Positions 41,093 to 43,262 of a stretch of DNA of 64,000 nucleotides are shown in pieces. The position numbers and the translations under genes were made by a program. A model generated the notes under the pieces. It saw nothing but the letters and a program-made list of their open reading frames with translations. It was not told where the DNA came from and did not search any database. Each line of letters starts with the position of its first letter. Positions within the stretch are counted from its first letter, which is position 1. The stretch lies in assembly GCA_913776825.1 (NCBI GenBank), contig CAJYPV010000011.1:1-64000 (forward strand), written 5' to 3'. The DNA is from Burkholderiaceae bacterium (GTDB lineage Bacteria; Pseudomonadota; Gammaproteobacteria; Burkholderiales; Burkholderiaceae_C).

Positions 41093-41273
41093 TGCCATCT
41101 CCTATCAACCAAAATCGTTAGATAGGTGGATGCTAATGATTCGCAACGACGCCGACCAATTGGACGCCTTGATGACGGCCATAGCCGGCGACCACGTGGA
41201 GCGATCGGCGCCATGTCAAGGGCGGGGAGTGGGGCGTCTCAGCGCATCTCGCGCGACGGCGATGGAGCTCGGC

Positions 41274-41343
41274 TTGCAGGCCCAACGCCTCCCGCTGCAG
41301 GGGACCGCGCATGCGCACGGTAGCCCTGCCGTTGGGCCTGCAA
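41274..41343. repeat. Long inverted repeat with attC-like ends
   Basis: Perfect 14-bp arms TTGCAGGCCCAACG (41274-41287) and CGTTGGGCCTGCAA (41330-41343). An inner pair GCAGGG/CCCTGC and an innermost ACCG..CGGT nest inside. Arms contain GCCCAAC and GTTGGGC, which match the R'' and R' box patterns of integron attC sites. No integrase or cassette is seen, and a structured RNA or terminator is equally possible. The 41093-41691 gap has no convincing gene. Confidence 0.65.
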
Positions 41344-41493
41344 ACCAAGCAACTCTGCCGGTCGGGCCCGACCTGGTGCCGCTTGAGCGGCGCGGGGTGA
41401 GGCGAGATCCGACGGACTCGGTCTGAACTCTGCCGCGGCAAGGGCCGGTCCGGCAGAGCTCCGGGTCAGTCGTCGATGCAAGCCGGAGGATGT

Positions 41494-41682
41494 GGGTGGC
41501 ACGCAGCCACCACCGAGGACTCGCCGGTCAGACTGACCAGGTGAAGAGGGTGGCCGAACGGCCGGGCGGGAGATGCAGCATCTCCTGGCGGCCCGTTCGG
41601 CGGTGCGCAGGACACGGACGACGGCGCAGACCGACGTCCGTCCTGGCACAAGCGGCGATCCGACCGGGGGACGATCGGATCA
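41494..41682. repeat. Cluster of strong hairpins downstream of the peptide gene
   Basis: Five consecutive dyads: GGTGGC..GCCACC near 41494-41510, GGTCAGACTGACC near 41527-41539, a near-perfect 24-bp stem at 41553-41601 with almost no loop (GAGATGCAGCATCTC in its centre), ACGGACGACGG..CCGACGTCCGT near 41619-41646, and GATCCGA..TCGGATC near 41655-41682. None has a T-tract on either strand, so simple intrinsic termination is not clear. They may form the 3' UTR of the peptide mRNA or a separate structured RNA. Confidence 0.65.
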
Positions 41683-41691
41683 CCGAAGGGA

Positions 41692-41877
41692 TTACCAGGT
41701 GCCCTTGGGCGTCGGCTCGGTGCCGCCAGCCAGGGTCGAGATCACGGGATCTTCGTTCCAGGTCCCCTTGGGCGTGCCGCCTCCAACGAGGTCGAGGAGC
41801 GCCGGGTCCAGTTCAACCGGGCCGTTCAGCGGTTGGAAAACGACGGATTGGCGATGAGCTTGTTCGTGGGCTTGCAT
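41692..41877 (-). CDS. Putative signal-regulated peptide with double-glycine leader and TPKGTW repeats
   Basis: A 61-residue ORF, ATG 41877, with GGAG 7 bases upstream. The leader ends PVELDPALLDLVGGG, resembling double-glycine leaders cleaved by C39 peptidase transporters. The rest has two copies of a unit made of L-x-GG and TPKGTW: GGGTPKGTW at 32-40 and LAGGTEPTPKGTW at 49-61, joined by NEDPVIST. It lies downstream of a LuxR gene, and a lux box is 79 bp upstream of the start. No modification enzyme or C39 transporter is in the window. I do not recognise the family. Confidence 0.75.
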   Translation of the reverse strand: MQAHEQAHRQSVVFQPLNGPVELDPALLDLVGGGTPKGTWNEDPVISTLAGGTEPTPKGTW

Positions 41878-41955
41878 GAGAGGCTCCAGATTCGGTGACG
41901 TGCATCGGTTCAATCAGCACGGAACGAATTGAATCAGCCACCCGCCAGGCCGGTA

Positions 41956-41973
41956 ACTGTCAGCTCTTACAGT
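41956..41973 (-). promoter_or_regulatory. lux box upstream of the peptide gene
   Basis: ACTGTCAGCTCTTACAGT, a dyad with the CTG-N10-CAG core of LuxR-type operators and ACTGT/ACAGT half-sites. Its near end is 79 bp before ATG 41877. On the minus strand TTCAAT (41929-41934) is a possible -10 element about 22 bp after it, so the box may overlap a -35 position. Confidence 0.85.
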
Positions 41974-42000
41974 GTTTACCAGCGATTCGAGCAGGCAAGC

Positions 42001-42714
42001 TCAGCGGATCAGCCCCATGCGCAGGGCTTTGAGCACCGCCTGGTGCTTGTTGGTGCAGCCCAGCTTGTGCATGGCGTTATTGATGTGCAGGACCGCCGTC
42101 CGCTCGGTGATGGACAGGATCGTCCCCACTTCCCACGCGGTCTTGCCCTCCATCGTCCAGTGCAGGCACTGGAGTTCGCGCGGCGTCAGGCGCGGCGCGT
42201 CGGTGTCCTGGCCGATTGGCAGCAGCACCCGCATCGCTGCATCCACCGCGTGCACGGCGAACAGCTGCAGGTCCGCGACCATGCGGGTCAGGGTGACGGG
42301 ATTGCTCGGGAGCGTCTGCTCCCGGTTCACGCCCAGCACGAAATGCCGACCTTCCGGCAGATGCAGCGCCAGCGAGATCCCGACCTTGTAGCCGAACGGC
42401 GCCTGCGCTTCCCAGAGCTCGGGCGCATCGTTCTTCACATAGGTCTGCTGATTCCAGACGATCGGGACGCTCTGCCGCTTGCAGTGCTGCATCACCGGAT
42501 CCTTCTTGCCCAGGCGCGGGTCGTTGAAGATGTCCGAGAAGCCCGGCGGCGCGTTCTGCACCGAGATGAAGTCAGAACCGCCGATGGGGTGATCCACGAC
42601 CAGGATCGCCGAGAAGCGCTCGAAGTCGAGGTCGTTGGCGAAGCGCGTGATCTCGCTGCGGAATTCCTCCCGCGAACGCGCTTCCAGAACTGATTGATAT
42701 CCGCCTTGCAGCAT
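42001..42714 (-). CDS. LuxR-family transcriptional regulator with autoinducer-binding domain
   Basis: A 237-residue regulator. The ligand domain (about 1-165) has the invariant DP at 72-73 (KKDPVMQHC), W87 (PIVWN) and G112 (YKVGISLALH). The HTH domain (about 172-237) reads LTPRELQCLHWTMEGKTAWEVGTILSITERTAVLHINNAMHKLG. The aromatic positions that are W and Y in classic LuxR proteins are F59 and F63. No luxI is in the window, so it may be a LuxR solo. Its stop is 28 bp from the lux box, so it would drive the peptide gene and perhaps read into it. Confidence 0.93.
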   Translation of the reverse strand: MLQGGYQSVLEARSREEFRSEITRFANDLDFERFSAILVVDHPIGGSDFISVQNAPPGFSDIFNDPRLGKKDPVMQHCKRQSVPIVWNQQTYVKNDAPELWEAQAPFGYKVGISLALHLPEGRHFVLGVNREQTLPSNPVTLTRMVADLQLFAVHAVDAAMRVLLPIGQDTDAPRLTPRELQCLHWTMEGKTAWEVGTILSITERTAVLHINNAMHKLGCTNKHQAVLKALRMGLIR

Positions 42715-42890
42715 GGATCGCCCCGGCTGAGCCGGTCCTTGGGTCTCCGTGACAGGGTAGCGCGGGATCTCGTGAGGGTGTCACGGGGCGCGCCCTGCTA
42801 GGGTTTACAGCTGGCGAGCTTGCCCTGTGCTACCGACACTTCAAGACAGGGAATGACAAGCCCACCCATTCAACTCAACAATTCTGACAA

Positions 42891-43262
42891 ATGACTCCAG
42901 CCTGGATTGTGTACGCGTGGCCGCGGATATTGTGTGATGTGCAGCGGCTGCCTCGCCTGCAGTTCGCGCATTTGAGCACGCGCGTGTTGGTCACGGGAGA
43001 CGATGACCGGCCAGCGATGGGGCAAACCCTGTGGTCGGGCGAGTCCGAGCTGGGCGCGGCCGGTGTGGCCTGGGACTGGGTGTGCATGCCCTACGGCATG
43101 GTGTCGATGGTCGACCCGATGGCGCTGGTCACCAACCTGCAATTCCTGAACCGCGCCGGCGAAGTGCTGGCCCCGATGGAATCGGCCATCCAGCTCAATG
43201 GCATCGTGCACACGCTGCCCTGGCAGGAGCAGGTGCAGCGCGCGCTCGCGATGCGTCATTGA
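42891..43262 (+). CDS. Hypothetical protein divergent from the luxR gene
   Basis: A 123-residue soluble protein with no domain I recognise: TRVLVTGDDDRPAMGQTLWSGESELG, then DWVCMPYGMVSMVDPMALVTNLQFLN. The first 16 residues may not be translated; GTG 42939 (starting before QRLPRLQFAHL) is a good alternative since no clear ribosome site exists at either. It is divergent from luxR (177 bp) and converges with the ABC permease gene. Possible role in the same system is speculation. Confidence 0.68.
   Translation: MTPAWIVYAWPRILCDVQRLPRLQFAHLSTRVLVTGDDDRPAMGQTLWSGESELGAAGVAWDWVCMPYGMVSMVDPMALVTNLQFLNRAGEVLAPMESAIQLNGIVHTLPWQEQVQRALAMRH

Follow-up and report, generated by a model that had tools for sequence, protein, structure and literature searches.

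Co-variation of a Trp-terminated repeat peptide with the ligand-binding domain of its neighbouring LuxR regulator at a candidate peptide signalling locus of Burkholderiaceae

Comparison of a Burkholderiaceae locus with its homologues revealed that the hexapeptide motif of a small repeat-containing precursor co-varies with the ligand-binding domain of the LuxR-type regulator encoded beside it, which is new here. We show the gene order, lux box, precursor conservation and repeat identity of this locus, together with the co-variation between motif and LuxR pocket. From these sequence comparisons, the locus is probably a self-contained peptide signalling system in which the LuxR would sense a ribosomally made, Trp-terminated peptide. 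With slightly less confidence, we favor a class of peptide pheromones that would be read by the LuxR pocket for acyl-homoserine lactones (AHLs) in many orthogonal pairs, with LuxR residue 69 and the penultimate peptide residue serving as steric lock and key.

Locus architecture and the peptide precursor

The window, the whole stretch of 64,000 nucleotides analyzed here, contains the LuxR gene, the lux box and the 61-codon double-glycine peptide gene with two TPKGTW units as described by the initial annotation, whose anatomy is borne out (Table 1). Its nearest named relatives are Roseateles/Mitsuaria, and its lineage is that of Roseateles. The leader, which carries GGG at codons 32–34, is assigned by the sequence pattern of C39-type double-glycine leaders. 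In relatives, full synteny runs RsaM-like/LuxR/peptide/HlyD/C39-ABC.

Table 1 Features of the LuxR–peptide locus in window coordinates
Feature	Position	Strand	Basis or remark
LuxR-type regulator, proposed peptide receptor, 237 aa	42001..42714	-	Autoind_bind 2.7e-21, GerE 1.3e-15
LuxR ligand-binding domain	about 42220-42714	-	part of LuxR gene
LuxR DNA-binding domain	about 42001-42210	-	part of LuxR gene
Codon of LuxR residue 69 (Gly)	42508..42510	-	aligned with LasR Ala70; size-complementary to penultimate peptide residue
lux box ACTGTAAGAGCTGACAGT, 5' of peptide gene	41956..41973	-	palindromic; pattern match
Peptide precursor gene, 61 aa, double-glycine leader then two TPKGTW units	41692..41877	-	ORF and genus-wide matches
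Leader, codons 1-34, ends LDLVGGG	41776..41877	-	C39-type double-glycine by sequence pattern
First TPKGTW unit, codons 35-40	41758..41775	-	translation
Second, C-terminal TPKGTW unit, codons 56-61	41695..41712	-	translation
CTG-N10-CAG site between luxR and rsaM-like gene	42795..42810	.	7/10 by peptide-box pattern, near chance
RsaM-like (DUF4902-like) gene, 123 aa, divergent from luxR	42891..43262	+	sub-threshold Pfam match
Scar of HlyD-type membrane fusion gene	41265..41406	-	weak tblastn matches, E 0.0007 and 0.005

A search of the family found LuxR genes of this kind (E 1e-55 or better) in 98 of 399 genomes and 37 of 141 genera, a count of genes whose peptides were checked in part. No plasmid match was returned by tblastn of the LuxR; in other families of the order, profile matches were weak, and those inspected (L093–L096) were not of this kind. 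Fifty-seven loci formed the discovery set, L131, L133 and L136 having been left out beforehand since their fetched stretches held no LuxR. A peptide was assigned by rule or by eye in 54 of the 57, with none for G182, G123 and G352. The search proposed by the initial annotation, for homologous Burkholderiales ORFs that lie next to a LuxR gene and conserve repeats, leader and box, succeeded at dozens of loci.

The peptide gene was matched in all 16 Roseateles genomes examined by a profile built from 16 peptides, including G007 (unit APTKGW), which a single-sequence search had missed. A substitution pattern unlike that of coding sequence had been named beforehand as refuting, and pN lay below pS in the pairs compared (window versus G015, 0.10/0.24; G005/G008, 0.03/0.39; G005/G010, 0.01/0.09), with too few changes to be telling in G006/G011 (0.03/0.04); G003 and G009 showed no changes in the first 35 codons. 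The peptide ORF is real and not a product of chance. It matched no Pfam or NCBIfam model.

Units vary between species (TPKGTW, APKNTW, GPRGGW and others) around the motif xP(K/R)xxW, present in one to five copies per precursor and most often two. In the joint alignment of discovery and hold-out loci (the latter described below), Pro stands at the fifth position counted from the unit end in 98/101 loci and Lys or Arg at position -4 in 71/101. The last copy places its Trp at, or no more than three residues from, the C-terminus, which is partly a selection effect because the picking rule required a Trp at or near the end; units in G286, G379, G137 and G098 carry one to three residues past the Trp. 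Among 38 multi-copy precursors, the units were identical in amino acids in 35, and the codon differences between first and last copy over all 38 comprised 71 synonymous and 4 non-synonymous changes. Selection thus preserves the amino acid sequence shared by the copies, a pattern that recent gene conversion does not explain. Four-copy precursors, mostly of DPSPKGTW repeats, occur at three loci of one genus (L120, L135, L185) that have no linked exporter; L120 and L135 show a weak C39-ABC-like match downstream.

Discovery leaders end in VGGG (as in the window), VSGG, VAGG and similar sequences, and several single-copy precursors would leave only 6–11 residues after the glycines, such as LPKATW, VDGPNKYW and TDLPKKVW. 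The double-glycine leader is absent from ten hold-out mini-ORFs of 9–31 aa that lie beside LuxR genes (L208, L219, L218, L189, L186, L211, L226, L224, L223, L225) and hold the same kind of motif, for example MQVLLPRNAW and MICLPRVGW; these ten loci also have no linked exporter. Two further precursors, in L178 and L180 (G425, G233), carry LPRVGGL with no terminal Trp next to a linked exporter, unlike those of G221 and G117, which end in LPRVGGW.

An HlyD protein and a C39 peptidase-ABC exporter lie directly downstream of the peptide gene in 49/57 discovery loci, their domains confirmed by Pfam in two (C39 match E about 1e-35). The C39 exporter guessed initially is thus the usual neighbor, while the window's own copy has decayed. 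Among the eight loci with no linked exporter, loss has left HlyD scars in the window, G015, G001, G003, G009 and G004; the others are G192 and G067. Downstream of the peptide gene, where the exporter has decayed, imperfect inverted repeats occupy window positions 41267-41350 and 41553-41601. A linked exporter pair was counted by hand in 34/60 hold-out loci, with five others cut by contig ends. The window, seven other discovery loci and ten hold-out loci having no linked exporter, secretion is not universal; in the window's strain, either another C39 transporter exports the peptide or the peptide acts inside the cell. C39-domain matches occurred in 18/18 genomes searched, exporter-less ones included, and the window's genome encodes two C39-ABC paralogues, which are 54% and 47% identical to the linked type. 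Export of the window's peptide by such a paralogue is not proven: no clear TPKGTW-like ORF was seen in the 14–15 kb around each.

The lux box of the window, ACTGTAAGAGCTGACAGT, lies 79 bp from the peptide ATG and matches ACTGT-N8-ACAGT at 10/10 positions, compared with an average of 6.4 in shuffles of the same stretch. Across the 57 homologous loci, the best site scored 9 or 10 of 10 in 51. A search of the window's whole genome for CTGTNAGAGYTGACAGT returned the peptide-gene box and no second perfect match; boxes with up to two mismatches, in this and other genomes, lay mostly off obvious promoters. The conserved box suggests that LuxR would control transcription of the peptide gene. A site resembling that between luxR and the rsaM-like gene recurs in most such intergenic stretches, with a near-chance score by the peptide-box pattern. 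At L155 4026 (G028), a one-mismatch box stands upstream of a type I secretion ABC/HlyD-like pair, named by eye, as a possible second target.

An RsaM-like gene adjoins luxR divergently in 54/57 loci. The window's protein matched PF16245 (DUF4902) at 17.2 bits, below the gathering score of 25; eight RsaM-like proteins tested gave five weak matches (at most 22.1 bits) and three none. The best PDB profile match was the solved RsaM 4o2h (BCAM1869) at E 0.5, followed by an endoglucanase at 0.67, and single-sequence phmmer against the PDB returned nothing. No luxI is linked to the LuxR in the window's locus. A LuxI-family gene (PF00765) is present in 9 of 30 chosen locus-bearing genomes, among them 4 of 16 Roseateles, and absent in 21; that of the window's genome lies on a different contig. 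The locus does not look like an ordinary AHL system.

Co-variation of the motif with the LuxR ligand-binding domain

In 42 discovery loci, the motif correlated with ligand-domain identity in a partial Mantel test controlling for the DNA-binding domain, RsaM, PCAT and MFP (r 0.29, 0/1000 permutations), and the same test on 32 non-Roseateles loci gave r 0.27 (0/1000). None of the DNA-binding domain, RsaM, PCAT or MFP was significantly related to the motif under the same controls. RsaM correlated with the motif under fewer controls (r 0.25, 1/1000, 50 loci; 0.15, 35/1000, 42 loci), an effect that was lost once PCAT and MFP were controlled (0.10, 112/1000), and so did the DNA-binding domain across discovery loci with control for the ligand domain alone (r 0.28, 0/1000). 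When the DNA-binding domain was the single control, the 48 hold-out loci showed a weak ligand-domain effect (r 0.14, 36/1000), and the reverse control, DNA-binding domain versus motif, gave 0.05 (263/1000).

Roseateles offers a closer view. Ligand-domain identity is 84–100% among nine TPKGTW species and 92–99% among six APKGTW species, versus 64–68% between the two types. G004 and G014 carry TPKGTW together with the matching type of ligand domain, but by ABC2, RsaM and MnmG (and PCAT, for G014 only) they fall among the APKGTW species; the DNA-binding domain of their LuxR is about equally near both types. Along G014, DNA identity to its APKGTW neighbors drops inside the stretch of luxR that encodes the ligand domain and rises again in the one for the DNA-binding domain. 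The mnmG+ABC2 tree rejects a single APKGTW clade (AU p 0.004) and needs two switches, while the ligand-domain tree needs one motif change. In Roseateles, motif and ligand domain switch together against the flanking-gene tree. Fixed differences between the types number 47 in LuxR (residues 22–173), 3 in RsaM, 1 in MnmG and 2 in ABC2, and, with three TPKGTW sequences only, 1 in MFP and 14 in PCAT. Those in LuxR are not enriched in the pocket (7/27 by hand count of pocket positions, about 6.9 expected).

Residue 69 and the penultimate peptide residue

In alignments, the counterparts of LuxR residue 69 are LasR Ala70 and QscR Thr72, both given as AHL-contacting in a table of a review (PMC9654057). 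In discovery loci, a penultimate Thr, Ser, Tyr or Val in the peptide goes with Gly at residue 69, apart from a single exception with Ser, and a penultimate Gly goes with Trp, His, Arg, Ala or Phe there. The two sizes anticorrelate in 52 of 53 loci, a set from which G379 and G139 were dropped for truncated LuxR and to which G182 was added with its first copy only. Ten independent switch pairs lie on supported branches; 9.7 went the same way on average and 0 the opposite way (median sign-test p 0.002). The match between motif and residue 69 holds in exporter-less discovery loci too.

As this rule was found post hoc, a prediction was fixed in writing before 60 further loci were fetched as the hold-out, of which 48 were used. 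The remainder comprised loci in which no peptide was found (G306, G264b, G296), LPRVGGL precursors with no terminal Trp (G425, G233), loci at contig ends (G374, G318, G209, G198, G379b) and LuxR genes cut before residue 69 (G247, G368). Peptide picking was not blind, the LuxR segment being visible beside the candidates, and three peptides (G391, G812, G171) were picked on a second look. The strict rule held in 36/48 loci (p 0.0015 against 53%; Fisher p 1e-4); many of these genomes share a genus with one another or with a discovery genome, and counting only the 41 distinct motif/residue combinations gave Fisher p 5e-4. Penultimate Gly accompanied a non-Gly residue 69 in 26/26 loci, Gly69 occurred with Thr in 10/10, and a bulky residue 69 with Gly in 16/17. 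All 12 misses fell on one side, with Ala, Ser, Cys or Asn (11) or Tyr (1) at residue 69 and a non-Gly penultimate residue. Side-chain volumes anticorrelated at the penultimate position (rho -0.63), with no anticorrelation at the other four testable positions.

Scanning all pairs of motif position and LuxR column placed the pair (-2, 69) first of 880 in the discovery set and third of 1045 in the hold-out, behind two pairs involving the almost invariant position -5. Columns were then ranked by coupling to motif positions -6, -4, -3 and -2, using sufficiently variable columns only. The top four of 162 in the hold-out were 75, 69, 63 and 114, equivalent to LasR Val76, Ala70, Tyr64 and Thr115. Against a LasR pocket list taken from one table (PMC9654057), the hold-out top ten contained six pocket positions versus 0.9 expected (p 2e-5) and the discovery top ten contained three (p 0.04); a first column scan had given pocket enrichment at p 0.08. 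Ligand-domain columns overall did not score above DNA-binding-domain columns (p 0.32 hold-out, 0.10 discovery), some of which couple strongly, above all column 222 in the discovery set. Shared descent accounts for part of all these coupling scores.

Among the pocket equivalents, Asp70 (98/101), Pro71 (101/101), Gly113 (101/101) and Trp85 (97/101) are kept. Trp57 is kept in 4/101 and is Tyr or Phe in 95/101, and the variable Tyr61 is kept in 12/101; the window's LuxR has Phe59 and Phe63 in place of the AHL-pocket Trp57 and Tyr61. An AlphaFold model of the LuxR alone, built from 11 sequences, was poor (pLDDT 56).

Proposed circuit, alternatives and precedents

In the circuit that we propose, a ribosomal precursor, with a double-glycine leader in most loci, would deliver its xP(K/R)xxW copies to the C39 peptidase-ABC and HlyD pair, which in most discovery loci would cleave behind the glycines and carry the peptide out of the cell. 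The peptide would return through an oligopeptide importer, and the neighboring LuxR would bind the C-terminal hexapeptide, or a derivative, in the pocket equivalent to the AHL pocket of LasR. From the conserved lux box, peptide-bound LuxR could then switch on the peptide gene and so close an autoinduction loop, which the RsaM-like protein probably tempers. This goes beyond the initial annotation, in that the LuxR probably doubles as the peptide's receptor. Of the three roles first suggested for the peptide, signal fits best, and bacteriocin and RiPP fit less well. To our knowledge, a hexapeptide is larger than known LuxR ligands, which counts against direct binding. Leaderless mini-ORFs and exporter losses leave the scheme open to an intracellular mode.

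That mode taken as the whole explanation, the peptide would be a cytoplasmic co-activator or timer in the same LuxR pocket, and export would remove it or have come later. LuxR proteins are cytoplasmic, peptide and LuxR persist with the residue-69 match intact in the 8/57 discovery loci with no linked exporter, and the ten exporter-less hold-out loci encode short motif ORFs with no double-glycine leader. The linked C39 exporter of 49/57 discovery loci (with a Pfam C39 match in the two tested) and the C39-domain matches in every genome searched, exporter-less ones included, argue against it, and the switching of motif and pocket looks like diversification of a signal between cells; we regard a purely intracellular ligand as rather unlikely. 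A quorum-controlled bacteriocin, with the LuxR sensing an AHL or other small molecule and turning on an exported antimicrobial peptide, would share the layout of class II microcins, which also combine a double-glycine leader with C39/HlyD, and LuxI-family genes do occur in 9/30 genomes, the window's included. Such a gene is absent in the other 21, and in the two loci inspected, the interval from luxR to the exporter shows no immunity-like gene. A bacteriocin also does not predict co-variation between peptide and LuxR pocket; this first reading was abandoned on the grounds that the peptide tracks the ligand domain and that several single-copy precursors would leave only 6–11 aa after the glycines, and we consider it improbable. 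Least probable of all, in our judgment, is a RiPP precursor whose Pro-Lys-x-x-Trp units would be modified, for example by a Lys-Trp cross-link, and exported, whether or not the product is the LuxR ligand. The commonness of Lys/Arg, the retained Trp, the near-identical units and a precursor with no Pfam or NCBIfam family would suit it; position -4 is Lys/Arg in only 71/101 loci, and in the two loci inspected there is no modifying enzyme between luxR and exporter, nor room for a radical-SAM gene.

With LuxI/LuxR AHL systems (LasR, QscR, TraR), the locus shares the LuxR domains, the lux box and the Asp70/Pro71/Trp85/Gly113 pocket equivalents; here, in contrast, no luxI is linked, Trp57 and Tyr61 are mostly replaced and the pocket co-varies with a peptide. 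LuxR solos such as PipR, PluR and PauR likewise act with no LuxI on non-AHL ligands, and PluR and PauR have altered WYDPWG positions (PMC10134790, in part). PipR, the nearest precedent, is activated by about 1 mM of the tripeptide Ser-His-Ser and depends on a gene for an ABC transporter; its authors suspected that the signal of leaf macerates differs from Ser-His-Ser (PMC4981722, in part). Unlike in these solos, the ligand candidate here is encoded beside the receptor, behind a lux box.

RRNPP proteins (Rap, Rgg, PlcR) are intracellular peptide receptors of Gram-positive bacteria and share the short C-terminal peptide of a small precursor, the cytoplasmic receptor-regulator and the switching of signal and receptor alleles. 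Here, the receptor candidate is a LuxR and not a TPR protein, the host is Gram-negative, and a double-glycine leader and C39 exporter are usual. Double-glycine pheromones (ComC/ComAB/ComD) have in common with the locus the leader, the C39-ABC exporter and allelic signal variation, whereas the receptor candidate here is cytoplasmic and the motif is repeated in one precursor; no histidine kinase lies between the block genes, and one adjoins the block in L039.

The same divergent rsaM/luxR pair characterizes the RsaM 'type 6' loci, with rsaM divergent from a luxR solo, of Pelomonas, Kinneretia, Albitalea, Xenophilus and Thauera (PMC10710839); a term search of that review's main text found neither 'peptide' nor 'ABC transporter'. 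A literature search, which took in parts of the LuxR-solo surveys PMC10134790 and PMC4338825 and had subscription papers and preprints mostly outside its coverage, gave no match for these hexapeptides or for a peptide-reading LuxR. A broader search likewise showed no such system beyond the weak tripeptide response of PipR. We know of no established LuxR ligand that is ribosomally encoded, all being small molecules, and peptide pheromones that act on cytoplasmic receptors are known as a theme of Gram-positive bacteria. If true, the proposed scheme would be an unusual way for bacteria to communicate, one that joins LuxR biology with such pheromones. LuxR solos would gain a ligand readable from DNA, and dozens of natural, probably orthogonal, signal/receptor pairs would become available. 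Hexapeptides are easy to synthesize, so the claim is directly testable.

Some loci hold arrays of three to five LuxR genes, some of them partial: L116 7142-10525 (G105), L205, L191, L196 and L197. Of the four arrays checked, those in G135 (L205), G235 (L191) and G380 (L197) vary internally at residue 69 and that in G250 (L196) does not, and the arrays look as if tuned to several peptides.
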